A stretch of 64,000 nucleotides of DNA from Bryopsis sp. KO-2023 (lineage: Eukaryota; Chlorophyta; Ulvophyceae; Bryopsidales; Bryopsidaceae). Where the stretch lies: contig BSYQ01000009.1 in NCBI GenBank assembly GCA_030272585.1, forward strand, positions 1,240,001 to 1,304,000. Reading direction: 5' to 3'. The position numbers were made by a program, and so were the translations under genes. Below the pieces are notes generated by a model. The model had not been told where the DNA came from and ran no database searches. It saw only the letters and a list, made by a program, of their open reading frames with translations. Below, piece by piece: positions 1 through 43,066 of the stretch; the stretch's first letter is position 1, and every line of letters starts with the position of its first letter.

Positions 1-1014
1 AATCCAAACCCATATCACTCATTTGCATCGTGGATAGGCAACAGGGGGGTTTTGGCGTCGAAGTACAAAAAAAAAAGGAAAATTGAGATTTTGAAACAAG
101 GCAATCCAGTCAGGGGTGGTAAAAAACGTAACGGAGCCCTCAGGAAATAGGGAAGCTTCTCGTGCTACCTTTGTTCGAAAACATCAGATTTTTGCGGGAA
201 ATTGTTTTTCGGAGGGCGGTTTCAACAGAAAACCAAGGTTTCAGAAAGATGCATTATTATTGTTATTATTATTTTTTTTGGGGGGGGGGCTGGATTATAA
301 AAGAAGGACAGCAAGGAAATTACTGGCCTCAAAGAAAATCGTCAGACCTGCGGAATGTAGCCCCGATCAACCAGCGTCAGAAGCACTCCACCACCCAGAG
401 TCATGACCTGTGAAAAACAAAGCGATATTATGATGTGCGTTTTTTGAAACATCCTTTCCCACTGGTACAAATTTTAAACAGTTTCCCCATGCATCCACGA
501 AACGCAAAAACTCATCAAAGCAGCCCCTTACCTTTGGGGGAATTCCCAATTCATTCATCGAAACGATCACATCTTTTCCGGCACCCTTGATCAGCTTCCA
601 AGTCTCTGTGTTGATGATCGGTCGGCCGGAGTCATCCAGAGGATTTAAAGCAGTGCCCTTTTTTTCAGGCTGGTCGCTTTCAGAGGAAAGGTAAGAGTCT
701 ATTTTAGCACCGCTGTTTTTGATGCCCACACATGCCTTTTTGAAAGCTTTTGTCACAGCCGCCACCGTCGATTTGACGATGAGGAGCTGGATATAGTCGA
801 GTTTCGGTAGCAGCCAGCGGCCAGCCTCTTTCTGAGTTCCATACCTACACAGTGATAAAGGGCACAAAAAAAAAACTAAAAATTGTCTAAACAAGAAAAA
901 GAAAAGGTATTTTTTGGCCAAGGAAAGGCAGTGCAAGAAGTGTGACAGGTGCAGAAGCTTTTTCTTTTTTTCTTTTATTTTCTGGGAAATGGGGATTACC
1001 CTCTTTGAAATATC
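1..1014. repeat. Segmental duplication, copy 1 of a DUF3754 gene part
   Basis: Matches 16905-17968 in the same orientation with scattered substitutions and a few indels, the largest being about 36 extra bases in the other copy near 17412. The match runs off the left window edge, so its full length is unknown. At the right it stops at 1014, inside an exon of the CFAP47-like gene: 15 exon bases plus the splice donor come from the duplicated DNA. The copied stretch carries two coding exons (348-407 and 532-844) and their introns. Introns differ more than exons. Confidence 0.95.
348..844 (-). CDS. Duplicated DUF3754 exons, in frame with CFAP47-like gene
   Basis: Two exons, 532-844 and 348-407, of the DUF3754/TMEM143-like family. 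The first begins YGTQKEAGRW and ends at GIPPK; the second encodes VMTLGGGVLLTLVDRGYIPQ. Both have GT-AG borders. The larger exon encodes exactly the same protein as 17487-17799, the copy in the intact gene. Its acceptor fits in phase with the donor at 1000 of the upstream CFAP47-like exon (IFQRG then YGTQ), so the two would be spliced into one reading frame. It could be the tail of a chimeric gene, of a second DUF3754 gene running off the window, or an assembly artefact. Confidence 0.75.
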
Positions 1015-4000
1015 GATGCCTTTTCCTGCTCTCCAATCGACGAAGGCTCGTACTGTATTTCGATGGCTTCTGACCCATAAGCCCCAACTGTGAACTTCTC
1101 AGGTTGGGCTCTAAAGTTCTGAGGATTTGAACACGACGCAATCACAGATACTTCCCGACCCAAAGGATTATCGAATGTGATGGTTTTCTGGTCGATCTTC
1201 CCTGCCTCGGCAGCGAAGGGAGAAACTGTGATAGGAGACGCCACATCTGCGTGCATATCGAGCTGATACCAGAACTCGCCAACCTACAGGTCCAAGAACC
1301 AATATGAGCAATAAGTTCCGCCGCCGCTCATCAGCTTTCGAAGTATATGAGAACGGCAGCTTGTGCGAATAGCAGCATACCTCCTCGTTGACGAGGCTTA
1401 CACTACCATTGTCGTCCCCAGCTTTCAAGGGGGCATAATAGAACTTGAAAATTGCCGTCTCTTCCGCCTCCAAGTCCAAGACTGGTGGACCAATCAAAGA
1501 CTCGTCTGAGTAGGAAGCTGAAAATTGTACCTGGGATAGACATGTGATGGAAGGTGAGCGATCTCACCCATCCAAAGCAAGCATACTGGTCACATTTCAA
1601 AAAAACAAACATAGAAAAACACAATGTGAATTACGTTTCGACAAGGAATTTTGTGACCTACATTTTTGGGCAGTGGGTTTGAAATGGATATCTCGACTGC
1701 TACAGCCTCTCTCACTCGGGTCGAGACTTCAATGACCCCGACCTCAGGCGGCTCACTGGCTCTGACCTCCATACTGAACCAGACGTAATATCCCTTCTCT
1801 GTTTCAAAATTCAGAGTTCCATGGAAGACGCCCGAACGGGGTGGGCTGATCGTCACCTTGTAGTTTGCGTGACTATTCGATTCGACTTTTACGGACTCTC
1901 GCCCCGATAGGAAGCCAATATCAGAAAATATTTTGTACTCTACTGCCTTAGGTGACGTGTTGGGAACGTTGATGCGTTTGACTGCTGATGTTCGTGCTTG
2001 GCACTCGAAAACAATGTGCCCCTCGGCCAATGGCTCTTCAGACTGCCCCTGCATGAGGTAGACATTTTTCTCGCCAGTTGTGCCGATGGACAGTTCCAAC
2101 GTTCCCGTATAAGCCCCGATCCATGGCGCAATGAACTTCAGCGGGTACATGCCTGTAAGACCTGTGTGGAAGAAAACATCTCAGATAAAATGTGCGCACC
2201 CGCAAGCTCTACAGAGATCAGATTGCTTTTTCAATGTAGAGAGTTGCGTTTTGTAGCCAGAAGTGGCGACTTACCGCTGGGAACGGTAACTTCTCGTGGT
2301 CCTTGAAAATGGAGACCTGTGCAAGAACTCTGCACGACCATTGCTTTTTCCGAGTTGTTCACCAGTGGGATGTCTTGGGATACTGTCTGAAAGGCTGGAC
2401 TCTTAAATTCGAGCTGAAAGGTTTCGCCCAGTTTTTGAGCACTGATTTCAACATCCACAACTCTCACATCGTAGGGTGATGTGAGGATAATTCTGCTGGG
2501 GTAGATGCCTGTTCCTATAGGTTTAAGTGCAACTCGGATTGTGTTTGGTTGTTCAGGCTTCCCAGTTTCGACAAGTCCACTGACATTGATCGTTCCGCTA
2601 GCTCCCCTCTTGAGGCCACCTTGCGCTTCGCCCCCCTGAGTTTGAGGACTGTGTTTCAGAAGGAGACAGGCAGGTGCCGTGACGAGGGAATTGCTTTGGT
2701 TGATTTGGAAGCTCATCTCGCCTGCAAGCATTAAACGAACGTTTAAAAAACTCCCGAAACACTACATCGATCCCATTTCTAAACGGAGCGAATCCTGTCG
2801 AGCTGCTCGTACCGAATTTGTCTTCCCTTGATGCTTTCAGCAAGGCAAGCTGCTCCTTGTCTTTTCCTAAGGGATGCTTGTCCTGGAAAACCCTTCTAGC
2901 ACTCTCGAGCTGATGATTGGAGTAAGGAACATATATGTCCAAGGCCTGGAGGCGTCATTCCATCGCAATGTAAATGCGGTTAGACTCAAATATGTTTCTG
3001 GGAGAATACTGTTACATGGTCGAATAGTTAAAGCATATACATGGACATTTGTTCTGTCTCCATACCTGAGATCCATCAGTTTCAACAGTGAATCGGTGCT
3101 CAGAAAACACTGCTGGCAGCGTTACTTCCCCAACGAGCTCGTAGCAGAATTCTCCATATTCCTTGTCCTCAAATATAACGGTGCAGTAGTGTGAACCAGT
3201 AGTGAATGGCAAAAACGACCCTTTCAGTTTATCGGAGCCATTGTGCTTGATTCGAAGTCGAGACTTGTCGACGCCGAACGAGTCCGGGAACACTTTTTCA
3301 CTGGAATCGACGCCTTCCTGTCCAGAAACAATACTTGGCTCACGTTTGGGCTTTGACGCTGCCGAGCTTTTTTGCCCGGTTCGTTTTGCTCCCTTGTCTT
3401 GTTCAGGCGGAGCGGGGACTTCCACAGGCAAGGCAGGCTCGTGTCTAAGGCGAATGCTGAATTCACAGTCTGGGGACAAGTCGAGCACATCAGTCGACCA
3501 GTGGGAATTAAAATACAGCTAGAAAAAAGGAAACTCAGTTTTCTGACACGAAATACTCGAAGAATGTGCATACCAGCCGGAAATGGATTGTTCACAGTGA
3601 ACTCAAAACGCTGGAAATCGTACAGCGCCATCTCTGTCTTGATTTGCTTCAAGGGTGCCCTGCAATTTACGAGGCTTCGCAAATTAAAGACAAGAGTGCT
3701 GGCGTGGGCGCCGCCATCACGGCGAGAGAGCAATACGAGACGAGATTCCTGAAAAGCAAGTGTCCACACGTGAGCATGACCCAAAAGAGGTGGTGCTTTT
3801 CAGGAATATAGAGAGACCCCACCTGAGGAATGGCTATTGTTGGAGTGCAAGAGACAGTGAGCTCAGCTGTACTCTTCGGATCAATCTTGACAACCGAAGT
3901 GTCAACTTCAAAGTCTGCATGGCCCTCGAGCCTGGTCGAATAGATCAGAACTTTTTTGCTGGGATTACTGAGCTGGATGGTCTTCACCTGTTTAATCGAG

Positions 4001-7000
4001 CAAGATTCTTTGGTGTTGGATAATGTCCACTACAATGTGTATGAAACAGAATCCATGCGCTTTTTAAGAAAAACGAACCTGATGCTCCCCAAGCCGACCA
4101 GTGAAATCCACAACTGTTCTTGGTATGAGCTCAGGCAGGGTTTGGTAGAGATAGAGGATGAAGATGGGCATCTCTGAAGCGTTAGGATTCATGATCTCAT
4201 GCTCCTTGATAGGGAAAGGCAAATTTATGTCCTGGGAAAACAAACCATTTGTGAGAATGAGTAGAGCCAAGACGCCCATGTAAATTATTGGCCAATAATT
4301 TCCAGTTAGACAAGTACCTGTATCATTCTGACGATCAATTCGGCATTTGTTTTGAATTGCTCATCCTTGACGGGTTTTTTGACGAGGGTGTGGGCGTATC
4401 TAACGAGAGCTGGCCAATGATTTAGGAGCAGGGCGAAAAGAACGACCCCACTTCTCAAATCGGAGTCGAAATTGGTGACCCGAAAGGAGCACTCTGGAAG
4501 TCCTTTTCGTAGATTTTCAGTGAGCCATTCCAGCAGAATGGACTCAGCAACGCTGTAGATGTTGCTGCCAATTAGTACTTTTTGGTTTATCTGGGGTAGC
4601 TGTTCAATGTTGCAGATATCTCGAACACCCTTCAGAGTCACTCGGGAAAAGAGGAATATCTTCGTGATCTGGAACAGTGAAGATCAAGTCACTCACTCAG
4701 AAACCAAGCCTGCGTTCATGAAATTATCGCAAAGATGGACAGGCAATTCAATGGCCACCTGCAGAAAGAGAGTACTCCACGCCTGCTTCGAAAACAGTTC
4801 GAAGTTCTCCTCAACAACTTTCCATAAATCGATTGCATCTTCCTCTTCAAGAGTCGACGCCTTCGTTGCCCTCCCCAACATAATTCTTTGAAAGTCTTCT
4901 GCCTCCAAGAGCAGCTCCGGCCTTACGGTATTCAGGAGCGCCCCATGCGATTTCAGGTGCGTGACCATCCAGTCGAAATGTCCAAGCAGTTGTTCAGCAG
5001 CCTCCTTTTTGTTCGCAGACAGGGTGGAAATCTATAAAACCACACGAGCTTGTGATGCATGCTCAGTATTGCAAGGGTTCAATACCAAAGCATCGTATAT
5101 CTCACTTACCCTATTTTGAGTTTTTTTTTCCGCCAAGGTGCTCCACGAGGTCATACAGCAGTCGTCCACGAGATTGGTGAATTTCTGCTTGGAGGTTCGT
5201 GAAGGGTCCCTTTGTGCTCGTAGCATTCAAATAATGAACCAAGTTCTGAAGAGGGGCGGGGTTGCTGTCCAGGATATCGTCGTCCGGCAGAACATATTCA
5301 TCGTGCTCGATCATAATAGGGCCTGAGGAATCGCTGTTCCAAACCAGGTCCTCCTTATTTTCCTTCATACGAATTTGGCAACACAAACGCCGTCAGGGAG
5401 GAGGGTATCCTCTGGACTCAGAATGTCCAAATCTATTTCACGTGGTGTTGAAAGTGCGCCAGCAAAAGTTACCGGGGGCTTTTGCCTCACTTGTAGAAAC
5501 GGTTCGATTGTCAGGATGCTGTTGTCCGTGGTGCCGGTGACCAGAATGCTGTAACGAGTTCCCTCCTCATCAAGAAAATCGATGTTTGCGGTGAACGACA
5601 TTGGCTGCGCCGCCTGGAACGACACTATGACTGGAAGCCTTTCTTTAGCGATGCCAATCAAGGATCCTTCAGGGAACTCAATCGAAAGCGGTACATGCAA
5701 ATCGTCGGCTGGAAGCCGATATCGAAGCTCCAAGTTGTCGAAGCCGTCGTTGACGACATGAAACTTAGCCTCGCTCCGCATGTCCAGTGGGACCTTTCTG
5801 AATCAAAAAAGCTCGTGGTTAGGATCTTTCAAGCATTCAGATAGGCACCAAGTCGCCATATAATCGCCTGTGTCGAGGTGAGCTTTCGTTCGCTTACTGC
5901 AGGCAAAATCACTTCACGTCGATCAAAACGAAGCCTTGGGTACTGCCCCATCCCCAGGATCTGAAGCTCCATGCTGGGAGGATCTTCATCGTCCAACCTG
6001 ATGGGGACTGTTTCCTCATAGAACTCGGCGTTGGAGGGCAAGAACTGGACAGCGAGGTTTTTTGTTTCACCAGGCTCCAGAGTCAGGTCTGTCGGATTGA
6101 TACTGAAGATTGAATTTCCTTCATTTTGTGGGAGTTTCAACTCGATGGCAAGGTCATCGTTGTTGGAGACGCGGACTTCAGCTCCATAAGGAACCTTCAT
6201 CTGCTGCGACCGCTGGACTATCTGAGTGCCGAAGTCGATCCTAGTTCTCGAGAAGAGCAAACGTGACTTGAGCCCCTCCGCAGCCACTGGGACATTTATT
6301 GGAGCGCCTGAGGGGGACATTGGAAAGTTGTGGCTTCCTTTTGTCGGCTACGATGATACTTCTTTACGGTGCTGAGTGGAAAGATACGTTGCGCGATACG
6401 GATGTGCCAAGGACCTGCAGCTGAAGTGTTTGTGCTGATAAGCATCGTGATAGGGAAATCGTATTTCTGTTCCTCGGTTGGTCGGAACAACAGCAGAAGC
6501 TCGAGTGCTCCACTGGGATTCAGCTTGATTTGGTATTTGTAGCCCTCCCTTCTGATCAGCCCGACTTCATCGGGGATGCCACTCAGAGCGGTGCTGGGAA
6601 TCCTGGAAAACATTGCACACGAGAACGGACTCCTACCGATAATGTTCATCTTCTTTTGGAATTGAGGGATGTGTTCTACAAGTGGTCGAGCGGATAGTTC
6701 GTCGAAGAGATCGAGAGCTCACCTTTTTGAGCATCGCGTGCTGCAGACTGAGAATGCATCGGAGTCCCTCGTCGCTCGTTTCAATGGGCATTCCTCGTAT
6801 TCAGCAGGGCTCCAGTTTTCTTTCGGAAGTATCAGTTCAAAGTTGGGCTGGCTTGATAGATCCACAGTCAGCAGAGCGGGAACAGGAGTCGCGTTCGTCA
6901 AATTGACAGCGAGACGGGCTGAGCCGCCAGTGTGGACCTGACAAAAATCGAATATGTCCTGTTTGGCCAGGACCTGTGGGACCAAAGCCTGTGCAGTGAT

Positions 7001-7567
7001 CGGCAGAGATATGTGCTGCTGGTTTCGCAGCTCCAGCTCCAGCTCAGTACGGAACGAGCCTGGCTCTGAACAGGCAAAAGCAACCTCCACTTCGAAAACT
7101 TCCTCTGGAGCAACCTTGCCCTTGCTGGGAGTGCATCGAAGCCTATCATTCCCGACAACCTGTGATCCAACGCACATTTATGAGCAAGTTGGGAAGAGTC
7201 GAGTACCAGAATGCGAAACAAACTTTATGTCTGTCGGCTCACCCGGAAAGCAGCATCGTGAGCCCCCGTATTCCTGACGAGAACCACAATAGTTTGTGGC
7301 ACCCCACATGGAATAGGTCCAACGTCCAAAGTTGGGTTAGAAAACTGCAAGGAGGCTTCTGACAGCTCCGCCCTTAGACGCACTTTCTTGTGGTTTTCAG
7401 AGCCTCCCTGGAGAACCAGCGACATGCTGGACTCGTGGGGCCCTGGCTGCTGGTCTTCTTTTGGAGTCCATCGGATTTTAGTTTGCGCGGAGGACTGGGG
7501 GGGTACTGTGCCTGCCTGCAGCAATGGTTTCAGCTTGTCTTTGAGAAAATTCCCGAACAGGGATTTG
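1000..7567 (-). CDS. CFAP47: CFAP47-like axonemal protein (partial)
   Basis: Cilia- and flagella-associated protein 47 family: a large axonemal protein of the central-pair region in motile cilia, made of Ig-like ASH/MSP-type beta domains around one calponin-homology domain. About 16 exons are readable, for example 7243-7567, 6723-7160, 5905-6310, 4322-4680 (CH domain), 3823-4020, 3066-3520, 2270-2730, 1663-2160 and 1000-1290. The CH core reads SILLEWLTENLRKGLPE and later GVVLFALLLNHWP. Just after it, QTLPELIPRTVVDF and LIYSTRLEGHADFEV match the order seen in animal CFAP47. Beta domains recur on both sides (FGTQIVQRS, VSNNDDLAIEL, VNNPFPA). One intron near 6685-6722 is only about 47 nt. About 800 residues precede the CH domain, fewer than I recall for the human protein. 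No start codon was found right of 7567, so the 5' end is missing, shortened or in unrecognised exons. The 3' end runs into the duplicated DUF3754 DNA. Family assignment is firm; gene ends are not. Confidence 0.88.
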
Positions 7568-8132
7568 CTGTGATAAGAATGCGGGCGTAACGACGAACAA
7601 AAAGAGTGGACTACTCCAAGATAGAATTGTTGGTGATGGGCATTGGAAGAGCGTCATCCTCAACCAGCCCCAAACCCTCACCGAAAATGCTTCAATGCAC
7701 TTGCGACTTTGGTGAAGCCTTCGTCGTGAGGCGATATTTGTTTCATTGAAATACCTACATGCCGAATCACTAATCATCAATACTAATGGTGCACTGTGGC
7801 AGTGTCCCAGTGCCATACCATTCCTTTTGTTGGTGTTGTAGACACAAACATCTTACTGGAAAAGGCCAGGATACAACGACAAGCATCCCTCTATCCTCCC
7901 GTTCTGTGTCCAGTTATGTGACGAATTTCAAGTAATTGACGGGCTTCCAACATTGTGGATATTGCCCAATCTGCGGAAGGTTTGTAAGAGTCGTCTGGAC
8001 ACCGCTCCAGCAAATAAATACCACCAATCACAATATGCAGCAAGCAAACAAACAAAGTTAGATGGGAAGATCATGGAACCCATGGGCGGCCATGATGCCG
8101 CCAGTAATCAGCATCTACTGCGCAAGATAGAG
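7568..8132. other. Upstream region of CFAP47-like gene, no gene seen
   Basis: Open frames on the minus strand here (for example 7478-7816) lack beta-domain features. A candidate short first exon near 7755-7816 does not splice in phase to the exon at 7567. No promoter motif was recognised. The true first exons of the CFAP47-like gene may lie here unrecognised. Confidence 0.4.
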
Positions 8133-8443
8133 TAGGGTTTCCAGAAAAGTATTTTAGTAGAATACGTGGCCTATATTATACGCGAAAAATACGTTTTAGT
8201 TTTTTCAATAAGAGAAAAATACGGCTAAGTGAGCCTACATTCTTTAGCTCTGTGGCCCCCATAATTGCGATTGTTGTTGTCAAATTGTTTTTTTTGTCAC
8301 GTGATAGTATCACGGTATACAATTCGCGTATCTATTCGGTATAATACGTTTGCCGCAAAATACGCATATAAACGTATGGACCGCGAGTTTGATACCAAAC
8401 CAAACCAAACCAAAAATATACGCGTATTTTATTGCCAACCCTG
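8133..8443. mobile_element. hAT-type MITE
   Basis: A 311-bp element flanked by a perfect 8-bp target duplication, AGATAGAG, at 8125-8132 and 8444-8451. Its ends form an imperfect terminal inverted repeat: TAGGGTTTCCAG on the left, and CAGGGTTGGCAA when the right end is read inward. An 8-bp duplication with a CAGGGTT-like end is the hAT signature. It has no transposase reading frame, so it is non-autonomous. The interior is AT-rich with several ATACG and TATACG words. It lies upstream of the CFAP47-like gene. Confidence 0.85.
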
Positions 8444-9170
8444 AGATAGAGCAATATGTAGCACACAAACAGACAAGATTGTACGCAGTGAAGCAGTAAT
8501 TGATTGATTGAATTTGATGTTTTTTTTGTGAGTGGCTCCTCTAGCAACGTGGGTTCATTGATTGACTTCTCAATAGCAAAGACAGGGCAGTCAATCAACC
8601 ACTCGCAATAAATACTCCTTGGCGAGTTCGTTCATTCATCTGGTTTCCTTTCTCCTCGAAGTTACTGATTGAAGAAGTGCGGAAGCTCGAGAGGAAGTAT
8701 TTTTCGACCTCCACTGTTTTCCGCGGATCATTATATATTCGTTGTAATAGGAGAGCGGCATCTCCTACACAATGTAAATGTTGTTTGTTTGTTTGTTTTC
8801 CGCGGATCTGCGGAAACGGACTGAAAGCTGAAGCTCATGTTTAAAGTTTTTCCAAAATTTATTATTCGTTTTTTTGATTTCGGAAGAAAGGGGGATGGAA
8901 ATTGTTTGTTTGTTTTTCTCATTCACGATTGGGATTTTATACTACGGAACGCTTACTGGGTGTAAATGTACACACGCGCCTGAGTGCGCTTGCTCTGAGA
9001 AAAAAAAAATCATCATTCTAGAGTCACTGTGGCATTTTGGGACTATGGAGTCCTCTGCAGAATCCTGATGAACATCCATCACCAGTGCCACAATAAACAT
9101 TGCTGGCAAGTAAGATAACAAACGTACTTATATTGTCAGCTACGTCAAGTTCATCCTCAAGAATATATAT

Positions 9171-9254
9171 ATCTCTCTAATTAGAGAGATCAGGAGACAT
9201 ACATATACATTCTGTATTATAATACAGAAATGTGGAGTTTGCAAACTCCACATT
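9171..9254. repeat. Three adjacent perfect palindromes
   Basis: Three perfect inverted repeats with no loop lie almost end to end: 9171-9190 (20 bp, half ATCTCTCTAA), 9210-9229 (20 bp, half TTCTGTATTA) and 9229-9254 (26 bp, half AATGTGGAGTTTG). Each could form a cruciform or RNA hairpin. They lie between the head-to-head CFAP47-like and ASPM genes. No target-site duplication was found around them. Function is unknown. Confidence 0.9.
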
Positions 9255-9729
9255 CTACCATTGTCAAATTTCCAACAATACATAAATATTGTTTGGGGGT
9301 TGGTGTTGAACCGAACGGAACGGATGTCTTTTTCTTTTATTTTCCAACCCCATGGAACATCTGCAAGAAGAGTCCAGGACTGAGCCCGGCCTCACCTTGT
9401 GTCGACCGTAGAAAACAATTGAGTCAGACATGGGAAAAGCTGGAATACTGGCATTGCGACAGAAACGCGCGCGCGCTGACGGCTGACTTGGGGTCGCAGT
9501 CCATAGAAGCCGGGGACTCACGCCTTTCGAGCACCTCCAAAGCACCGAACCCCAAAGTTGAGTTCCTCAGAGATTGGTGGCGACAAGATGCGGACCATGT
9601 GCGTGCGTGTGTCTATTCCTGACGACTTCCGGGAGGCTCCAAAGGTTCGGATCGACACACTATTCATGCTCGCTTTACGAAATAGTCTATCTCCTTCACG
9701 GCTGCCTTTAAGCTTAAAGGCCTGGCAAA

Positions 9730-12700
9730 AGTTACGGTTTGCTGAGTGAGGGTATCTCCATCGGAGTTTTCGGACCGAAGCAAACAGCAAAGCTACCACT
9801 TGAACACGCCAAACCGTTCCAACGGAATGCAATAGTTTCGAGTGCTTGGGAACACTCAATTGACTTAACGGTGCTGTTGAACTCCCACCAGGACGTGATT
9901 CTGGATTTCGGTGCAGTCCGGCAGGGGGCCAAGGGCGTCATTGAGCTCCACGTCGAGTCCAACAGGGTGCAGGTAAATACCTGCGCTTAAGCTTGCTTGT
10001 GTGTGTTGGAGTCGAACTGTTAACAGAAACGTTTCCTCGGTTATCAACAACGAAAGGCTGGCGAACTGGGTGGTTGGGATCCTGAAGTTGCTTCTTGTTT
10101 GTTTTTTTCCTTTAGAGGCTTGCCCTGATACTCAGCGATGTACCTGCACCACTTTCCTGCGAAAATGCAATAATGGAAAGGGACAAGAAGGGACGAGCGT
10201 GGTGGATTGCCAGGCGTGACATGCCTGCCGTGGTCAGGACGACGTGGGAAGCTGGGGATTGCCCCTTGAGGGGGCGCCTAGTGTTTCGCATGGACGACAA
10301 GAGGATGGTGACCGCCAAAGTCCGAGGGACTATTGACGGCGGTTTGGAGAGGCAACCTGTGGTGAGTGCAACACAGCTATCGTTCAGGAAAGCTTATCTG
10401 CACGGAAATGAAAATCTGTAGTGCAGAAATACAAGGAAACGGTAAAAAAATTGGAAGTGGGAGAGTATTCTTGATGTTGGTGGTGGTTCACCCAACAAAA
10501 AAGTGCCAGGAGTTTTCGTGTAAGGAAACGGACATTTGTGACGGCCTGGGTTATTGCATCGATGAGTTGTCTCGAGTCTTTTTCTTGAGGCGAACCATGC
10601 CCGCCTCAGGGGACCCTGGACGTTGATTAAACCAAAAGCCAAAGGTGTCGACACCCATTTTCTGAATGTGTGTATGTGTGTCTAAAGTGGCTCTCAATTG
10701 TGTCTCAGCGTCAGAAGAAATGGTCGATCCAAGCAAGCTATGGAGGGAGGGAGGGGCCTTCGGTGCAAGGAGATTCCAGGGATCGGCAAGCAATGATTTC
10801 ATGCATGGAGAAAAATACAAGAATTATGATGAACACAGATGTTCTGCGAACTGAAATTACGCGATCAATGCAGAGCCAGGGAGGACAGCCGATTCCGGAG
10901 GCGTCTAAGGAGCGTCTTCTGCTGATGTTGGTACAATCCATTGCTGCAATTTATGGAGTGCGGGTCAAAAACTTCACATCGGATTTCCGTGATGGGAGGG
11001 TCTTGTGCTTACTGGTGCGCCATTAGGAAAGAAACACAAATGTGGACAATGATCATTGTCATTATTATTCTCATGACTTTGAATTGCTGAAGTCGCTTTC
11101 TGCACCCATTGCACTTGCCAAACAAATAGGATGTTTTTCCATGACAGGCACACTACTACCAGCCAAACATTATGGACCTGGGGAAGGTCTGCATGGGCAC
11201 ATCTCCTGATGCAAGCGTTGTGCACAGGTGAGAATCTATTTTCTATTTTCTATCAGAAAATTATATTATTACATTATTACATTATTTTATCACGTAATGT
11301 AAAAGACACATTTGGGGTGCAGAAATCCCGACACACATACACAAACCCCAGATTATCCTACACTTTTGACCAAAGAACGGTTCGACACAACGATGAAACA
11401 ACACCTGAAGCCTCGTTTGGTCACTGCTTGTGCTGTCATGTGCAGGGATGAAATTCAGCTGAATTTTGATGCTGTGTTCTCCACCCTACAACAACTTGGA
11501 GTTCCTCGAACCGTTGCAAAATCTTTTTTTCAACTGCACAGGGAGGCCATGATCACATTCGTTGGTTTTGTTTGCTCCAAAATGATAGAAGCTTCTTGGA
11601 TGGCACCAAAACCAGGTACGATTTCCTCCAAGAAATTGTATTCATCTCTTGAAACCTCACTGATCGGATGTCAAAATTTCTTCAAAGATTGTATTTATTT
11701 ATTTTTAGTTTTTTCTGAGGGCAGTAGGGGCAGGAGTCCCAAAAACATTTGGTGAGGTTTGCATGAAATTCACAAGATGTTTTCTGGAACCCCTCCCTCC
11801 CCCCCCAATCCGTGGAAAAAACTGGAACAGTTGGTTGAGCATAAACAAGCGATGATGAGGTTTTGGGAAGCTTTTCCCTGATATTTGGAGTGAGGGCTCT
11901 TATGTGTGTGTTCCAGTTGTGAACCCCACATCGCATCCCTTGGATTTAGCCGCGACGACCATTCAGCGAGGCGTCCGGTCACTTTTGCTCCACAAGAAAT
12001 GGGAGAGGGCTGCCATGGTAATCCAGGCACATTGGCATGGACGAAAGACCAGGAAAGAGTTCGTTAAAAAGAAGAGGAGTGCTGTGTCCATCCAGGTAAC
12101 CCACTGAGCATTTGAGATGCAAAGTGTTTTTTTCAGAAGCGCTGAACAGCAAAAGGATTTTTGACACCACTGTCTCGACGTGTATGTCAGGCTGCATGGA
12201 GAGGCCACCATGTCCGGGGCTCGATGCTGAGGCTGTCCAGGCAGTGGGGTGTTGAGGCCTACAAGTCGATCCAACGCGAAAGTGGATCTCATGTTCCGTC
12301 ACCTTGGGACACCTTGGCCTTTCGGTTCGGGTTCTATTGGTCTACCACGCTGGACCCAAGCTCCCAATGCTCCTACTTTGATCACATGATGTATGGCAAG
12401 CACATGGGTGAACTGGCCATGGGGGAATGGCGCTTGATGGAGATGTTTCGAAGGCTGAAGGCCACCCAAGCGATACAGAGAGCGTGGCGAAAGCTCTGCC
12501 GCCACCGGCAAGCAATGGCTGCTTTACAGGCAGCACACTTTGTCAGACTGAAGGCCGTCACGGTGCTGCAGAGGACATGGAGGGACGTATTGATCCGTAA
12601 GCGTCACCTCCAAATGCACTCCGCAGCCACCGTGATCCAGAAGCACTGGCGAGGTTGTAGCGCCCGTTGGATCGCCATTGACATGCGGGTGAGCAGTTTT

Positions 12701-13450
12701 CTCGCCAAGCACCTCTCCATGATCCACACAGCCAGCAGAACGATCCAAACAGCCTGGAGGAGACACAAGGCGAGGCAAGCTTTGAGACGGGAAGAAGGTT
12801 CTGACAACCAAAGCTCCCATTGTTGCGCGGGCGGTGCGGGTCCCAACAGGTATAAACATTTTGCTGATGTGCTGACCTTTAAATTCTAGAACTTGAATTT
12901 GGTTGAGAGGAGGTCATGAAGAGCGATCATGTGATGTCGTTTTGCAGGGATCCCCGCCAGCACAATGGTCATGAGCTTACTTCGACCCAGAAGAGGTTTC
13001 GTCGCGAAATGTCTCAGCCAGAAAGGTAATGCCACACTACGTTTTGTTTGCTTATCGGTTCCTCAGTTTCGACTCCAGTGAGACTAAAAGGACCTCCTTG
13101 TCGTTTTCTCTCGAGCTGATCTGTTTAATGTCTTAGCCAACAACAAGAGAAAATCACGATTTGTGCATGAATATGATGTGGGGTGCAGCAGGATCAGTTA
13201 TGGGTGCAAAAAGGAGAAGCCCTCAAGTGGAAATAAACCAATCCGGTCAGCCAACGACGCCACATCTCGACCGCGGTGGGGGGTTTCACAGGGTAGCAAG
13301 GAACGACCAAAACAGACTACCAAAGTCCCTGTTACAAGTCGAGCGGTTACAAGTACAGCGAACGGAGATCACAAGAAGGTCCCCTCGAAAAGTAGAAAGG
13401 GTTCACGCCAATCAGCCAACAAGGCTGCATCTTGCAAACCCTGGAGATGA
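9730..13450 (+). CDS. ASPM: ASPM-like spindle protein
   Basis: Abnormal-spindle family: works at spindle poles and microtubule minus ends with calmodulin. Domains in order: an N-terminal ASH beta domain (9730-9972, motif ILDFGAVRQGAKGVIELHVE, and 10116-10361); a calponin-homology region (10688-11013, motif NFTSDFRDGRVLCLL; then YYQPNIMDLGKVC at 11149-11228; then about 11352-11612); about seven IQ-type motifs (from about 11926 and 12180-12850, for example IQAHWHGRKTRKEF, IQRAWRKLCRHRQA, IQKHWRGCSARW); and a basic tail ending at the stop at 13450. It totals about 850 residues against about 3,500 in human, because the IQ array is short. The first exon is not settled: ATG-led open frames at 9558 and 9588 do not join in an obvious phase. 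It is divergent from the CFAP47-like gene, which also pairs ASH and CH domains. Confidence 0.87.
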
Positions 13451-14056
13451 ATTTGTTGAATGTACATTAGCTAGAATTTTTTTCTTCTTCTTTTTTTAAT
13501 TTCCTTTGTTGTTCATTGTGTGTACCTTATTTTCTTTAAACTTGAATTGATGAGAATGCTCTTTTTGTCTTTGTCTGGTGTTTGTCGCATCATATGTTGT
13601 GGGGTTATGCACTCAATGAATGAGAGGAGCTAAGATGGAGTCTAATGATTTTGCTGCGGTGGTGTTGTTCCACTGCACCCCCACAAGATTTTTGTTCCTT
13701 TTTATCAACTGAATGGCATGTGACTTCAGCCATGATTTTATCGTTAATTTTCATCTTTGTTTCATTCCAATACGGCAGAAAAAAAGAGAAAAAAAAAAAC
13801 ACTCGGCAGAAAGTGCAGTTTTCCCGCTGTGGGGTGTTTTCTTTTGTTTTGCATCTTATTGTTTTAACAACCTAAAGGCCTGTTGAGAAAAAGGAAATAT
13901 GGGAAGACACGTGGAATAGACACCGGCAATAAGATCCAAAGCAAACAGGTGAAAGTTTCTTTTCTTTTTATTCTTTTCTTTTTTATCCACCAGATCCTTG
14001 AGAAGAATTCGAAGCTAGAGTGGTGAAGTTGATACACACATTTTACAGCAACGAAT
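13451..14056. other. Convergent intergenic region
   Basis: Lies between the 3' ends of ASPM (+) and the DUF3754 gene (-). It is T-rich with A8-10 and T7-8 runs. No gene or repeat family was recognised; it probably holds both 3' UTRs. Confidence 0.6.
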
Positions 14057-14439
14057 TCAATATCTTTCTGCAATCTTTCCCTTCAGCAGATCATCCCAAT
14101 GCTTTGTTATTCTTTTTATCCCAATTTTGGGGTCCACGGCCGTATAGAAATCCTCAGCCCCGATTCTTGTTATAGATACGAGGCCCAATCGAAGCAGCTG
14201 CGACAGCGCATCCTGGCTCTCAAATCGAACCTGGGGGAAAGTAAACAATTTGGTAATACTACTTCACACGACCAGTTATTTTTCACTTTCGGATGACAAT
14301 TTTTCAACTTTTTTTTCCAGGGTTTCGTACAACAGTGTTGCATCTGCAGTGTGTTTGTTTTCGTTTTTTACGATTAGTTCCACGACCAAGCCATCAAATT
14401 GATATCCGATGAACATCAGTTGCATTTTACAGGTAACAT

Positions 14440-14526
<87 letters not shown>

Positions 14527-17500
14527 TTCTTTTTTTTTGGGGGGGGGGGGGGTGGAAAATTGAGAACACATGCCATTTCAGCAAGGTGGGCGGTCTTCAG
14601 CAATTATGTACCTGGAGACCCTCCTCTCTGAGCATTTTTTCCACTTCGTTCCCCAGTGCCTTTGTAGACAGGGCTTTGTTTCTACAGATCATCAAGGAGT
14701 AGGCGAGAGCGCACTGTGTCAAATCGCAAAACCCGGTTGTCATTAGCCAACACCTTGATGTGTCTCATTCTGCAGGGGCATTCGGTTCTTTCTGAAAAAT
14801 AACAGCTTTGGCAGTGGTGGGTCCTTTCCATCGAAGAGTAACTCTTTCAGTGAACAGCTTTCTTTAGCATGAAAAAAGAAAGACACAGGCCTTTGACATC
14901 TAAAGGAGTTAGCCGTTTAAAAACTTTTTTAAAATTTAAATAAACTCAACAAATATTGATAACACAGTCCATTAAAGAAAATAAGCATCATATTGCTGCC
15001 GTAGTCTGGGTGCAGACCAGCTCACATGCTTGAATTGCTGCAGGGCTGCCGAACTGGCTAAATACACAATCGCTCCTTCCTGCCCAGCCAGGGTCTTCCT
15101 CGACAGCAGTTCGTTTACAAAACTGTCAAACCTGGACGACCCACACACGATCTGAAATGAATGACATTTTCAACATGTAGAAAATTTAATTGGATTTGTC
15201 GTTTGGAAAGCCCACCTGTCGAACATTCTCTTGTAGCCAAGGAAAACTCGGACCAGATATACCACCACTGATGCGAATGTTGCTATTTCAAGCAGAACAG
15301 AATCGTATTTTGCTTGGGCACCGACAGCTGCGAAGAGCAATTCAAAAATTAATCATCAGGTACAATGAAACAAACAAACAAACCCACATAACGCCCTCCC
15401 CCTTTTTTCCAACCTGTTTTTGTTTTGTTTCATGGCTTGTCAAAACTAAAACAACGATTTGAAAAAGCTGTGAAATGAGTAGTTGATCTTTATAAAAAAA
15501 AAAAAAAAAAGATCACAAAGATGAAGTCATTCGCCAGAATTATTTTCTTAGATCTCAGAATTCTCAGATTTTAACCCCCCCAAAAAAATTGAACTATCGA
15601 ATCTGAAGCAAAACACACCTACAAGACCGATCAATGTAACGAGGTCCAATCTGATATTATCCAACGGTCGAAATTGCAGCAATTTTTCTGGGAAAACTGC
15701 TTTCCATATCGGCATCTGAATTTCACATCGCCATTATTTTCAGAGCTCACCAGCAGACACAATGCAAAAAGATCTCGAAAAAAAAAAAAAAAAAAAGATA
15801 AGAATGCCATGTTCACTGGTTTTAAAAAAGGACCTAACAACTCACTGGTATTCCGTCATAGACCCGGATTTGAATTTCTTCCCTGGGTGTGGGCTGCGGA
15901 GCATCAGGTTGGCTCTCTGAGAAGATCTGTAAAAAAAAAGGAACCCTGCCGTTGTTGATGCTGTGCATCGCACAAAGATTTCGTTGTTTTTGGTTGGTTA
16001 TACTGCCGCCCTTATACCATTCATTGACAAGAAAAAAGTTCGAACTCCACTGCAAACAACGAGCAGCTAGGGAAAAGAAAATCTTCGATACAGAAATTAC
16101 AAGAATCATTCAATTCAAATTGAATCAAAAAATCTAATTGAATTCTATCAACCCCCAGGGGGGAAAGTTCAGTCAAGAAAAAAATTGTTCAAGCCCAATA
16201 CCACTGATCAGATTATTTGAAACCAAAACAATCAATACTGCAACAAAATACAAGAAAACCATGGTTTATTCTTCTTGATTATGAGGGCTAGCTTTTCATT
16301 AGGAAACAAAAATAGCGTTTTCGTACATTGGAATAGAATCACCGCACTTTCTTGAGAGCATCGATCCGTCCTGGCTTCTTGTTGTATCTGTAGACCACCA
16401 CCAATCGCTCGAAAGTGGGCTCCTTCAATTCAGCCCGGCTGAAGAAATCGGCGACATTGCCAGATGCAAAAGCTGACCCTACACTTAAGCAAACCCAAAA
16501 ACATCAAAGATCAATAGTTACAAAAAAGTTGAAGAATTGAACGAATGAGGATCTGAGAAAAGAATCTAATTCAACCCCACCATGCCTAGATGTCCCACCT
16601 TTTGGGTTTAAAAATCGAAACCAGTCTAGGGGAGGAAATCTGGGGATTTTTGAACCGTTTTTTTTTTTCAAATAACATGCAGCCCCATGCAGTCTGTCCA
16701 CTAAGCAAACGAGTGATATGGGGTTGCTGCATCAACAATGGCCAATCTGGGTGGGGTTCTTACCAACCGCATCCGTCAAAGTAAATCTTTCGACGAAGAG
16801 AGGTTCTCGCGCTGCATTCCCATCCTCAATTGGCCAAACCTCGTCAAAAGTCTCCAACGAAGTCACATCGATCTGATCATGAACAATACATTCAGCAATA
16901 ACCCAATCCAAACCCATATCACTCATTTGCATCGTGGATAGGCGACATGGAGGTTTTGGCCTCAAAGTAGTGCATTTTGGGAAATTTTGAAACAAGGCAA
17001 TCCAAAAAAAATGAAAAATCTTCATGTTGATCTTGTCATGAGGGGTGGTGAAAAGATCTACGAAGTCCTCGAGTAATAATGACGGTTCGTGTGGTTCGAA
17101 AGCCTCTGATTTTCTGCAGGGATTTTATTTTTTTGGAGGGCGGTTTCAACAGCAAGTCGAGGTTGCAGAAAGATGCATTGTTATTGTTAGTTTTCTTTCT
17201 TGGGGGGGGGGGATTTTTTTTAAGAAAGGAACGCAAGGAAATGACAGGCCTCAAAGAAAATCGTCAGACCTGGGGAATGTAGCCCCGATCAACCAGCGTC
17301 AGAAGCACTCCACCACCCAGAGTCATGACCTGTGAAAAACAAAGCAATACTGTGATGTGCATTTTTGGTAAAAACCTTTTCCACTGGTACAAATTTTAAA
17401 CATTTTCCCCAAGGCTCTACTTTGGGCTCAAAACAGTGACCTCATCCATGCACGAAACGCAAAAACTCATCAAAGCAGCCCCTTACCTTTGGGGGAATTC

Positions 17501-20050
17501 CCAATTCGTTCATCGAAACGATCACATCTTTTCCGGCACCCTTGATCAGCTTCCAAGTCTCCGTGTTGATGATCGGTCGGCCGGAGTCATCCAGAGGATT
17601 TAAAGCAGTGCCCTTTTTTTCAGGCTGGTCGCTTTCAGAGGAAAGGTAAGAGTCTATTTTAGCACCGCTGTTTTTGATGCCCACACATGCCTTTTTGAAA
17701 GCTTTTGTCACAGCCGCCACCGTCGATTTCACGATGAGGAGCTGGATATAGTCGAGTTTCGGTAGCAGCCAGCGGCCAGCCTCTTTCTGAGTACCATACC
17801 TACACAGGGATGAAAGGGCACAAAAGAAAACAACTAAAAATAGTCTAATCAAGAAAAAAAAAGGTATTTTTGGCCAAGGAAAAGCATTGCAAGAAGTGTG
17901 ACAGGTGCAGAAGCTTTTTCTTTTTCTTTTATTTTCTGGGAAATGGGGATTACCCTCTTTGAAATATCAACATATCTCGAGCCTCAGGTGGGAGTTCCTC
18001 GCTCATGAACTTGGATGTCAGACCAGCTGCCAGAGAAACAAAAAAAAGCAAAAAAAAATATCGTGACCTGTCGGCTTGATAGGAAAAAATTTCACACGCA
18101 AAACTGCACCCACAAAATGCTTCTGAAATTTCGAATCCAGGATCCAAACCCCACCCCCCCAAAAAAGAAAAAAAGAAAAAAAGAAGAAAAGAAAAGGAAC
18201 TGCAAAACTGAGCAACATCAACCATGCCACCCTGCAAAAGTTACTCTTTTTTTACCATTGAGAAAATACCAGAAAAAGAGTGAGAAAAAGTTCAGAAATA
18301 TTCGCAGACCAGATATGCAGGACAGCAACCACACAAACGTCTCTAACATTTGAACGGTACCTAAATTGCTGTGAAAGAATGGTAGAGTGAAATCAAATGA
18401 CATCAAACTTAGTGCGTACCATCCAGTTTTCTGGTGTCCCCTCTGATGAACAGCTGCGACAAGTAATCCATGTTCAGACTTTTAGACAAGGCCACGTCCC
18501 TGGAATCCAACGGGAAAAATTGGGCTTTCCCTACAACCACCAAAACAGCATAAAACCACTTAAAAAAAATCCAACAACATCCTCTTCATATCACTGTGAG
18601 CACAGCACTCAAAAAGTTGATGCAAGGTCTGCGATTGAATCCCACTCGCTAAAATCTTTTGATAACAAAAAAGCGCACCCCCCCCCCCCTTCACAGATTC
18701 TCTCATTTTCCTACAAAACATGGACCAAACTCGCACCAAAAGAAACTTACTCATCAGTCGCACGAATCCTTCGATAAATTCTTGATCTGCGGTTGATGCC
18801 CGCATCCTCAAAGCCAACTTCTCGAGCGAATCGATCGGAGGCTCGACATCGGCCTCGATTCCACCCACCTTGAGCAAAAAATCCCACACCTGGTGCATCA
18901 CAAACACGAAAACCAATTCGTCATGTAAAACTACTGTCCCGGTGAAAAAAGTTGGGCCCGATTCTTCTTGAATGTGTCCATGTCTTGAATCTTGCAAACA
19001 TATTTCATGAAGGTTGAAAAGCCCCCGTCCATCACGCAAATGAGTGAAAAGGGGCAGCCTATTTTCTTGAAAATCTCATTTTTCCATGTTAGATTTCATC
19101 AAGAATCACCTCATTTTTTTCAAACACTGGCTCAGGGTCACGAATGGTGCAGGCTTCGTTGGCCTCATGAAGGGCATCCAAAACGCGTTCCCCCTCCAGC
19201 TGAAATTCAAACCTAAAATCCCCAGAAAACCCCACAAAATGGAGTTCATTTTTTCAATGTGCTAGGATCAATCAGGCCAGGCAACTTTTTTTTGCATAGT
19301 CCCCCCCTCCCCTTTTCCTGATGACGAGTTGTTGAACAGCATTGCAAGAAACTGCACCGATTGTTTCAATGCAAAACAATGACACAATTGTGAATGAGCA
19401 TCCGGTCATCCTCAATTATCTAACCACCCCCAAAAAAACTGTTTTCTCACCCTTCCAAATAAAGTTTAAAAAAAATTCATGGGCAATTTATCTGGCATTG
19501 CTCAATTTACCTGTAAACGCACTCCAGCGCTGCTAGCACAGGTTTCACTTCTTCCCAGTTGCTCGATGACCTCTGGACCAAAAGTGAGAAGAGTGGGGCT
19601 TTCAATTTGCCTTTTCTTTTTCAAGTGACGTCACTTTCATCGGTTATCGGGAATTCCAATACTGGACATGGTTGAAAATCCTGGAAAACGCATGCTACCT
19701 TCATGGATTGCCAGAGATTGTCCAAATCTAATGGAACGTGGGACTGCCTATTCACACGAATTCTCTTTGTTGTGGCTTTGCCATTTTCTGCAACAAATGT
19801 CACACTTCTCGGTCACTTGATATGAAAATCCTCAATGCAGAATCGTTTCTTTTCTGTTTTCTTTGAAACGACAGATTTTTGTGTGGGGAGCATTTCAGCA
19901 TGGAGGGAATTTTTATCATAAAAGGATGCTTTTTTCTTCTTTTTTTTTCATCCAGCAGTTGTTTTTTTTACCTGTGGGCCTTGATGCACAGCACCGAACG
20001 GACAGCGTCGATCGGCCGCCACCGATCGATGAATGTTTTGCAGCCTGCAT
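14057..20050 (-). CDS. DUF3754 (TMEM143-like) membrane protein
   Basis: Protein of the DUF3754 family (animal TMEM143 and plant/bacterial homologues); biochemical role unknown, often assigned to organelles. I place the start at 20050, giving MQAAKHSSIGGGRSTL, an Arg/Ser-rich, acid-poor leader like an organelle presequence; only this frame joins in phase to the exon at about 19700-19787. Later exons show the family landmarks: PPEARDMLIFQRG (17963-18020), the 17487-17799 exon, LDWVIAECIVHDQ (about 16750-16900), EPTFERLVVVYRYN (about 16340-16470), EIQIRVYDGIPVS (about 15850-15930), EKLLQFRPLDNIRLDLVTL (about 15620-15715), a membrane stretch ATFASVVVYLVRVFLGYKR (about 15215-15325), LLSRKTLAGQEGAIVYLAS (about 15030-15150), and the C-terminal ALSQLLRLGLV with HWDDLLKGK (14057-14230). 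Exons of 20 or more residues alternate with introns up to about 1 kb, one carrying a TTTA microsatellite. Part of this gene is duplicated at 1-1014. Confidence 0.85.
14437..14553. repeat. TTTA microsatellite followed by T and G runs
   Basis: About 22 uninterrupted TTTA units to about 14527, then a T run and a G run of about 13. It lies in the last intron of the DUF3754 gene, between the exons ending EEGLQ and starting VRFES, which join in phase around it. The repetitive open frame across it is a translation of the microsatellite, not a gene. Confidence 0.97.
16905..17968. repeat. Segmental duplication, copy 2 (within intact gene)
   Basis: The resident counterpart of 1-1014, lying inside the intact DUF3754 gene. 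It includes the exon 17487-17799, the 60-nt exon near 17276-17335 and the last 15 bases of the exon upstream. Against copy 1 the 313-bp exon differs at four positions, all synonymous by my reading. Confidence 0.95.
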
Positions 20051-39592: not shown

Positions 39593-41957
39593 ATGAAGCT
39601 GCGTCGGTGTCGGTTACCCAACGCGCTCTGTTGTTGTTGTTGTTCAGGACGTTCCCCCAGTCGAAGAGGAGTGCGCTGGGATGGAGTGCCCTGGGATGGG
39701 GAGGCAGACTGGGATGGGGAGGCAGACGTGGCCACCAACCAGCCCGAGTCTGTCCTGAGGACAAGAACCTCTGGGCTTCTGTGTCAGGTACCTGTACCAG
39801 GTTACATTCATCTCATTCATCCACAAAAAATTTGAATGGAAGAATACCGTAAAAGTCTGAAAATAAGCCCCCCCTCAAATAACGCCCCCCCCCGTGTATA
39901 CGCCCCGGTACGAAAATCAACACTTGTGGTCCGTGTATACGCCCCCGTCCGTGTATACGCCCCCTTGGCGCGATTTCATCTACTGGATCGACGAAGTCGG
40001 TCACGTGTTCCCAAGTCGCACGCCACACTTCGCTGCACTCCGCTCGTTCGCTGATCTGGTTGGACGTTACCGTTGGGCGGCTGCCTCGCTCGTTCTCTCG
40101 CTCGTTATTTCCGTGTTTTTAACGTTTTGTAATTGTTATCTATTTCGATCCTTGTATACGCCCCTGCCCGAATATAAGCCCCTGCCCATGTATACGCCCC
40201 CTTTCCAGGGCTTACTATTCTATACGCCCGGGGCTTATTTTCAGACTTTTACGGTATCTACATTTCTTTACTTACATGTGCATGGAAAATTGTTTCTGTC
40301 GGGTCAAATCTGTCACATTGGAGCCTTCCATCATGCTGTCATTCCTCTCTTAAACCCTTTCACCCTTCCACACTTGCACCCTTGCACCCTTGCACCCGTT
40401 GCCTTCCAAAAGTCTTTGAGAACCCTGACCCGTACGAAGAAGAACAACAACATGGTCAATGGGAGGGTCGCATACAGAAGCTCCACACCCGTGCATGAAA
40501 TTTTTCGGGCGCCCGTGGTGTGGGAGCAACATGAACAAGAAATTTTACAGGAACGGGTCAAGCAACCACACGGAGCTGAGCCACCGACTCAGAGCAAGGG
40601 TAAGATCCCTTGTGGTGCAGTCCGGCATTTCTGTGGTTGTGAGTGTCGGAATCCCGGTCAAACATGGGTCAGCTTCTGATTTCTGGACACAATTGGTTGT
40701 GTTGATGATGTGCACGTGTATTGAAGACTTTCTTGTTGAATGTGTTTCGTGCAGGGGCCACCCTGTTGGTGTGCGCTTTCGAGGTAAGCTCACCTTCTTG
40801 GAATTTGGCCCAGTCCAATGGGCTGGAAACTGGCAGCTTGTGTTTACTGATTGAGTGCTCAGCACCTTGTTTTATTGTTCTCCGTCTTTTTCTTTCAGTG
40901 GGAAAGGGGTCAGAAATTCTGTTTGCGGGGGATGTTGGGGAAAAAAAAAAAGAAGATGGGAACTTGAGCCATTGTGACACTGGCTGTTTTATTCTCTTGC
41001 GATGTAGGCATGTTTCGCAGCGGCCAGGCACATAAAGAACTCGGAACAGTTTGTGGCACTGGGATTTGACTTGGTCAAATCTGTCATGGAGGGGGGCTGC
41101 ATCGATGCCGCACAAGCCTACACCCTTCTTTTCGATTCGGTCATGATGCTGCAATCTGTGGGCTGGGGTTCGAGTATGGAGGGCCCATGGAAATGAATAT
41201 TGCAAGAGTTTGCCGCATTCTACGACATCCCTCCAGCCCACAGATTGCTTACCCATATTCAATGGGCTGCGTACCACCGAGCAACGCAATTAGTTTTATC
41301 AAATATTTTATCAAAAAAATTGGTGAGGATTCGTTGACGAATGATTTCAGCATTCGCCTTCAAAATTAAAGCAACCCATGTTCAATTTCGATCTCTTTGC
41401 TCCAGAAAATGAAGCCTGGCGTGAGGGACGCGCACACACAAACACACTTGGAGTCAGGCCAAAACCAATCCAACCAAGAGGTGGCCATTGTGGAAGACAA
41501 GTCAGGAGTTGCGGATTCTCCTACAAAAACCTGCACCTGTGGGTCGGGCGGCGGAGTTGCAATAAGCAACTGTGTTCCTATCTACGGTGTCGCGGTGGAA
41601 AAGGGAAATCTCAGCACCCAATCTGTTGTGGAAGACGGGTCAGGAGTCGCGGGTTCTCCTACAAAAACCTGCACCTGTGGGTCGGGCAGCGGAGTTGCGA
41701 TAAGCAACTGTGTTTCTATCTACGGTGTCGCGGTGGAAAAGGAAAATCTCAGCACCCAGGCCTTCGATACGACGGAACTTGCTCGGACTAGGAAAGGAAG
41801 GGAAGGGATGGATGACCAAGTGTTGAAGATTGTGAACGACGATCGAGTCAAAAGCAATACATCAGGTGCATCAATGTACATTACACAACAACCAACGAAT
41901 GAGACACAACAACTAGCGAATGAGAATGAACGAATGAGGGTTTTTAGGATTTTTTAG
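39593..41957 (+). CDS. Uncharacterized protein with 46-residue tandem repeats
   Basis: Five exons joined in phase: 39593-39786 (MKLRRCRLPNALCCCCC), 40413-40599, 40755-40783 (29 bp), 41008 to about 41155, and about 41403-41957 with the stop. About 360 residues. The central part ATLLVCAFEACFAAARHIKN and EQFVALGFDLVKSVMEGG is helical; the family was not recognised. The last exon holds two copies of a 46-residue unit (SPTKTCTCGSG then GVAISNCV and IYGVAVEK). Exon 1 contains short GWDGEAD-type repeats. A MITE sits in the first intron. The start and the 41155 border are the least certain points. Confidence 0.5.
39847..40254. mobile_element. MITE with 25-bp perfect inverted ends
   Basis: A 408-bp element. 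The left end CCGTAAAAGTCTGAAAATAA and five further bases at 39847-39871 are repeated inverted and without mismatch at 40230-40254. TA flanks both sides (39845-39846, 40255-40256). Subterminal words GTATACGCCCC occur about six times, in direct orientation on both flanks. No transposase. It lies in the first intron of the 39593-41957 gene. The TACCGTA tip resembles widespread MITEs with ends of the type ACCGTA...ATAAGCC, usually placed near Tc1/mariner. Confidence 0.88.
41490..41765 (+). repeat. Two 138-bp coding tandem repeats
   Basis: Units start at 41490 and 41628 (both GTGGAAGAC) and differ at only about ten bases. 138 is a multiple of three, so the frame is kept. In-frame conserved residues are CTCGSG and a Cys in ISNCV. 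Confidence 0.92.
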
Positions 41958-43066
41958 TCAGCTTAGTAAAAGAACATGGAATGGAAGTAGGGAAGAAAGA
42001 AAAATGGAAATCAGGAAAAAGGGAAAACTGTGGGTGAAAAATGGACGTATGAAGAGAGAGGAGGGTGGGCTGAGGACTTGAGCCTGAGGTGAAAGAATTC
42101 GACCGATATGGGTTAGCCTTTTCCGCGACACATTTCCGTGAACGGGCTGCACTTGGCCTTTTGCCTTGTGTAAAATTCAATGGTGGTCAGACGATTTTAA
42201 TGCCACACCGATTTTTAACAATCCTTGGAATCACAGCAACTCTCGTGTCCTGACTGCCTCAAGAATGCTCTTCCAAAACAATGAATGGGTTTAGAATAAA
42301 CTGTGGTTTTCCTGTCTCATGTTCCAACCGAAACCGAAACCAACGGTTTCAAGAAGACCTGCTATTTCAATGTTACAATCCTCACATCTGTTCAAATAAA
42401 AACCAGCAGCTATCCAGATATATTCTATGGATGTGTTGGGTGCAGCGTATGAGTCCTTACTAAACAGAAAAAGGAGGTCATCACCCCCCTGATGTTAGAA
42501 AGCCACAAACCAAGTACGGGGGAGCGTTAGCGTTGATTTCGCTCCTTCGTAGCGGCTGAATCTGTGGGTCCCACACAGTTCTCCTGGATCGGCTTGTGTG
42601 TATGTGTGGTATTCCCTTTTTGGTCCTGTCGTTATCCTCACGTTTTTCATTTCAACTTGTCTACTTTTGTCCACAACAGATTTCTGATAAAAAGAAACAA
42701 GAGAAAACTCCACCACCCATGAAACAAACATCATTTACAAAGCTACTGAACCCTTCTTTTTCTGGCACTTTAAAATGGAGTCACCGTCAATCAACCACGA
42801 TAATCTGAAATGAAAAGTAAAAAAAAAAAGAAATGATTTACATTCTTGGTCTTTGACACTAATGCACAACTTTGAATTTGCATCAAGCAATTAAGTTATG
42901 ATCACCACAAAAAAAAATCGTCGTCTTGGTCAGGAGCTCTTTAGCTACACTGAAGCAACTGCACAATCTGCCAATTCTCACTTTGTCAAAAAAAATTCTC
43001 CAAATCACTTTTGCTTTTTCCTGCCCCCCCCCCCCCCAAAAAAAAAAAAACATCACTTGATGCGAC
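41958..43066. other. Convergent intergenic region
   Basis: Between the repeat-protein gene (+) and the first expansin-like gene (-). A C run then A run at 43024-43050. No gene or repeat family was seen. Confidence 0.55.

Follow-up and report, generated by a model that had tools for sequence, protein, structure and literature searches.

The analysed window, a stretch of 64,000 nucleotides of the Bryopsis sp. KO-2023 assembly (91 Mb in 28 contigs), corresponds to positions C9:1240001-1304000 of contig C9. Self-comparison of 164 kb (C9:1140001-1304000) reveals two repeated blocks, D1 and D2, arranged from left to right in the order CFAP47 parent gene, 30 kb, D2 copy A, D1 copy, and D2 copy B. 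Block D1 (window 1011-7518, minus strand) is an internal 6.5-kb fragment of CFAP47 that is cut within an exon at either end and copies C9:1191570-1198081 with 98.7% identity. Copy A of D2 occupies C9:1228119-1241014 (its right end is window position 1014) and copy B, its relative, window 7518-17968; the two share 97.1% identity over the first 485 aligned bases and 94.7% over the main aligned part, and ∼2.4 kb of copy A (1228623-1231068) has no partner in copy B. Searched against the genome, D1 yields two matches, namely, itself and the parent, and the DUF3754 part of D2 has copy A as its single other long relative, all remaining matches being short (≤200 bases). A previous reading of the window from its sequence only had assumed one duplication boundary; the blocks instead define two junctions (window 1011-1014 and 7518) around an internal fragment whose parent, out of that reading's sight, lies 49 kb to the left of the window copy. 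The 164 kb examined, both junctions included, contain no N bases.

The CFAP47 parent was modelled on the minus strand as 28 exons (C9:1202927-1190078), using a simple gene finder whose codon use was learned from this gene's own long open frames, so that all exon borders are approximate; the gene may begin further to the right, in an open frame near 1203600 that has a plausible start. The gene name is borne out by the FAP47 chain of PDB 7n6g, which matches two stretches of the parent (E values of 3.4e-101 and 9.9e-98). D1 spans part of exon 12 through part of exon 26 of the model and thereby includes the second of these stretches together with most of the first. All 13 D1 introns examined retain GT and AG, a count that leaves aside the intron between exons 25 and 26 and an extra intron within model exon 20. 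An apparent stop codon at window 4066 and an inserted base at 4012 were discarded as coding damage, since the FAP47 alignment places this stretch in an intron. The copy does carry one frameshift: an A9 run on the minus strand (window 5107-5135, at ∼5121) exceeds the parent's AAAGAAAA by one base, and the resulting +1 shift yields GGKKNSK and then TAG just ahead of the donor at 5109. As a homopolymer difference this may be a sequencing error, and it is strong but not final evidence against expression.

The other partner is a DUF3754 gene, whose name is likewise confirmed: its hand-stitched exons match PF12576 over positions 1 to 137 of 137 (E value of 1.8e-13, 51 bits versus a cut-off of 27), whereas in a genome search of the unspliced DNA, exon by exon, the same profile scores 19 bits (E value of 0.044), under the cut-off. 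In copy B the modelled gene (window 14066-18026, minus strand) runs from the exon at 18026-17954, which ends in IFQRG, through the tail and is still continuous with its own upstream DNA. In copy A, the first two modelled exons of the tail (window 844-532 and 407-348, minus strand) are followed by others to the left of the window, all in phase from the join to a modelled stop near C9:1237150; this is the tail that had been proposed as a check beyond the window's edge. The DUF3754 domain is encoded entirely past the join, in the tail, and a chimeric protein would therefore contain it complete. Both parents are retained elsewhere, CFAP47 as the parent model and the DUF3754 gene as copy B with its tail, the upstream exons of the latter being only presumed.

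At junction 1 (window 1011-1014), the plus strand reads TATC in C9:1241011-1241014, in its DUF3754 relative, and in CFAP47 (C9:1191570-1191573). Homology of the DUF3754 region (to window 17270-17968) stops at 1014, inside a CFAP47 exon as had been claimed, and homology to CFAP47 starts at 1011. These four common bases, with no long homology at the join, are what is expected of a microhomology junction. Across it runs a single open frame that forms a chimeric exon (window 1000-1283, minus strand) with the DUF3754 donor: 269 CFAP47 bases (1011/1015-1283) are followed by 15 DUF3754 bases (1000-1014), the four at 1011-1014 being common to both. On the minus strand, with a slash at the exon border, the chimeric exon ends in GCA TCG ATA TTT CAA AGA GG/GTAATC and the DUF3754 exon in ATG TTG ATA TTT CAA AGA GG/GTAATC; the CFAP47 parent reads GCA TCG ATA ACT CTG CAA AGC, followed by ITLQSSDAGCWEYECIGK and a donor of its own. 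Both the chimeric and the DUF3754 exon lead in phase into the following modelled exon (844-532, YGTQKEAGRW), just as the sequence-only reading had it, and the assembly does contain the exon-internal, frame-preserving join of CFAP47 to DUF3754 at a duplication breakpoint, a block of one gene against a block of another. The shared IFQRG end and donor stand as far as the preserved frame is concerned but not as a second, independent coincidence of exon ends, because the DUF3754 gene itself contributes the final 15 bases and the donor. By our reckoning, a frame match would arise in about 1 in 3 random joins.

Junction 2 (window 7518) connects CFAP47 exon 12, at C9:1198081, to C9:1228119 and has 1 common base, which is no more than chance. 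The reading frame is open through it, and no in-frame ATG is found from 7653 to the first Met within the CFAP47 sequence. In D1, exon 12 has no acceptor, and exons 1 to 11 of the parent model and part of exon 12 are missing; unlike chimeric genes for which expression is expected, this one gains neither promoter nor start codon from its upstream partner. As a start for the chimera, a signal-peptide-like minus-strand exon at the left edge of D2 was considered and set aside, as its suspected frame disagrees with that of CFAP47 at the junction. The idea of a plain transcript that would give axonemal domains joined to DUF3754 is not supported, given the missing exons, the lack of an in-frame ATG, and the frameshift with its TAG before 5109. 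Two alternative origins of junction 2 were also set aside: a 30-kb insertion into copy A is out, because the 30 kb hold the N-terminal CFAP47 exons and other genes, including a PPR gene, and a later insertion of D1 into an old D2 junction is improbable, as we reason, because it would have had to hit that junction exactly. The 282 bases beside junction 2 (window 7518-7799) are identical in both D2 copies, with D2 just beyond them differing by ∼5% (13/235) and D1 on the other side by 2.6% (13/500).

Substitutions were counted to either side of the join. After masking of all codons that overlap parent positions 1194553-1194640, D1 differs from its parent at 44 silent and 8 replacement sites in 1,578 codons (w = 0.067; noncoding, 35/1770); these numbers replace a first count of 46 silent and 12 replacement differences including one stop (w = 0.079), made before the intron was recognized. 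In 10 hand-chosen exons of the DUF3754 tail, copies A and B differ at 18 silent and 3 replacement sites, two of the latter in one codon, in 417 codons (w = 0.063); their introns show 240/2318 differences, a figure that misaligned, indel-rich introns may inflate. If the copies had evolved neutrally after duplicating, w should be near 0.55, and replacement counts this low would have a binomial probability of 5e-11 for D1 and 3e-5 for the tail. Even if all replacements are ascribed to drift of the copy, the neutral time amounts to at most 0.0023 (D1) and 0.0033 (tail) per site. By our arithmetic, each limit equals ∼13% of half the corresponding silent divergence, and a single frameshift in 4.7 kb is consistent with this brief period. 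Such low w values on both sides could mean a functional chimera. However, a dispersed fragment of the CFAP47 N-terminal part 700 kb away (C9:1895123-1897567, ∼93% identical to C9:1199719-1202186), which is dead by virtue of one stop and a 10-bp insertion in its exons, has a w of just 0.146 (22 silent and 9 replacement differences in 452 codons, the 9 including two in one codon and the stop; noncoding, 61/1025). Most of the divergence therefore probably predates copying, and the simplest common cause for D1, the tail, and the dead fragment would be recent copying from a diverged allele or lineage. The patchy divergence (35/1770 in D1 noncoding DNA, 240/2318 in the DUF3754 introns, 0 in 282) is what would be expected if the age of the alleles varies from place to place. 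A different pattern comes from the ASPM-like gene piece in D2 (window 9293-13447, plus strand, borders approximate; a CH domain and an IQ motif were found in copy A), for which five of the seven modelled exons, one of them in part, give w values of 0.97, 0.58, 0, 0.36, and 0.40. The four values of 0.36 to 0.97 fit relaxed constraint since the duplication better than allelic divergence, unless this gene evolves fast.

The explanation that we favor, with moderate confidence, is a recent segmental duplication whose two junctions arose by end joining or template switching, with a diverged allele or lineage as the probable donor and a chimera that is most likely inert. We infer a tandem repetition of the DNA corresponding to C9:1191570-1241014 in which the second copy came to lack 30 kb (1198082-1228118), either in the same complex event or through a later or pre-existing deletion. 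Junction 1 landed in two exons at a common GATA (minus strand), with the frame kept by chance, so that the CFAP47 exon continues into the final 15 bases of the DUF3754 exon and the DUF3754 donor is usable. A diverged allele or lineage as the source of the donor DNA, which we consider probable, would account for copies that are 3 to 5% apart at silent sites despite so brief a freedom from constraint. The two junctions, the frame, the parents, the copy numbers, and the frameshift are read directly from the assembly; the order of events, the allelic donor, and the lack of function are inferred. The fate of the chimera is judged from the retention of both parents, the lack of a proper 5′ end, and the frame broken once. 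This explanation is favored by junctions that share only 4 and 1 bases in N-free sequence; it has against it the ASPM-like w values, the possibility that the A9 run is an error, the 13 of 13 splice pairs kept, and the outcome of five probes (3 to 3.8 kb each) from outside D1 and D2, none of which had a full-length second copy elsewhere. The probes thus give no sign of an assembly that kept both diverged haplotypes. Two of the five found a partial second copy of >1 kb at ≥90% identity and three found none, so partial duplications seem common in this genome.

The main alternative, which we regard as unlikely, is that two divergent haplotypes were joined in tandem by the assembly, which would make the duplication and the chimera artefactual and junction 2 either a further misjoin or an allele with a 30-kb deletion. 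Haplotype mis-assembly is known to create false segmental duplications, as described by Kelley and Salzberg (2010; PMC2864568), and there, as in Bryopsis, copies lie close by and differ at an allelic level; the allele-like copies, the low w of D1 and the tail alike, the patchy divergence, and the single frameshifting indel in D1 would all suit such an origin. In contrast to those duplications, the Bryopsis locus has no N bases, its joins involve 4 and 1 common bases, which we judge too short for an assembler overlap, and no full-length second copy was seen with the five probes. Moreover, two misjoins within 6.5 kb, or an extra large deletion allele, would be needed.

It is doubtful, more so than a misjoin, that the chimera is functional, that is, expressed, perhaps from a start inside the fragment or at the D2 edge, and under purifying selection. 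Beyond the low w on either side, such a gene would account for the retention of all 13 examined intron borders, for a modelled exon chain that is open from ∼5022 to the stop left of the window, for the complete DUF3754 domain, and for the 282 identical bases beside junction 2, but the A9 frameshift puts a stop ahead of the donor at 5109, N-terminal exons and an in-frame upstream ATG are lacking, and the dead fragment shows low w too. In its fullest form, for which we see little likelihood, it would be a young chimera, under purifying selection to either side of the join, that couples a fragment of axonemal CFAP47 (with Ig-like and CH domains) in frame to a DUF3754 protein containing hydrophobic, perhaps membrane-spanning segments by means of the borrowed donor, the A9 run being an assembly error and expression beginning inside the fragment or in the 282 identical bases. 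If the chimera were expressed and constrained, it would represent a new gene near birth in a photosynthetic protist. Least of all can be said for an older single-chromosome duplication of uniform age, followed by the 30-kb deletion and by gene conversion that, acting in patches, made D1 and the 282 bases look younger: it would explain the differing divergence without alleles and would agree with the relaxed look of the ASPM-like exons, but gene conversion should not, we reason, lower w, so that the few replacements in D1 and the DUF3754 tail would be left unexplained, and such a history is very improbable.

On the favored reading, the well-preserved chimeric exon at the segmental-duplication breakpoint is of a kind already known and is probably inert. 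The closest parallels come from yeast breakpoint events, which were reportedly obtained in the laboratory and in an intron-poor genome. In that system, the pertinent section of Payen et al. (2008; PMC2518615) counts 13 chimeric open reading frames, 3 of them in-frame fusions, from 26 sequenced segmental-duplication breakpoints, and in Drosophila yakuba, 76 chimeric genes from tandem duplications are given for 15 lines in the corresponding section of Rogers et al. (2017; PMC5460883). These counts, as they appear there, do not support the earlier view that such joins are rarely seen in the act. Like the yeast cases as presented in that section, the Bryopsis locus combines microhomology breakpoints inside genes with an in-frame fusion and intact parents; unlike them, it has two junctions, introns, a borrowed donor, and a divergence of ∼1 to 10% between its copies. 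The D. yakuba duplications, as outlined by Rogers et al., similarly disregard gene borders and unite parts of two genes, but in the example given there the 5′ end of one gene is taken, whereas the upstream partner in Bryopsis comes from the interior of its gene and lacks a 5′ end. No published CFAP47 fusion gene was apparent among the titles and abstract openings of the papers listed by a literature search. The locus offers a natural example of an exon-internal duplication breakpoint that results in an in-frame gene fusion and spares the parents, and it illustrates that low dN/dS alone can mislead, as the dead fragment of the same gene is low as well.

Several minor features were noted in and around the blocks; no Rfam family matched window 1-20000 at gathering scores, and a tRNA scan of the window found none. 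In copy B of D2, ∼112 bases (window 14890-15001) that are missing at the corresponding place in copy A match contig C28 at 91%. That contig carries the Rubisco large subunit gene (rbcL; best PDB matches, 8q04 and 1gk8, which are green-lineage enzymes), which points to a photosynthetic organism that probably has a plastid of the green type; the 112 bases are perhaps plastid-derived DNA in the nucleus. Also confined to copy B is a 74-bp repeat (window 8725-8798), found in at least 24 other places among the matches listed, at 96 to 100% identity; on both sides it is flanked by matches to the same 15 bases of copy A (C9:1231497-1231511), a pattern that resembles the one left after an insertion with target duplication. 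Further to the right, a 415-bp element with 28-bp inverted ends (window 39844-40258) has three further copies with 100% identity and partial ones at many more sites; it resembles a short terminal-inverted-repeat element that was active recently. A second local direct duplication (window 43042-48923), consisting of four pieces with 78 to 89% identity, is seemingly older.
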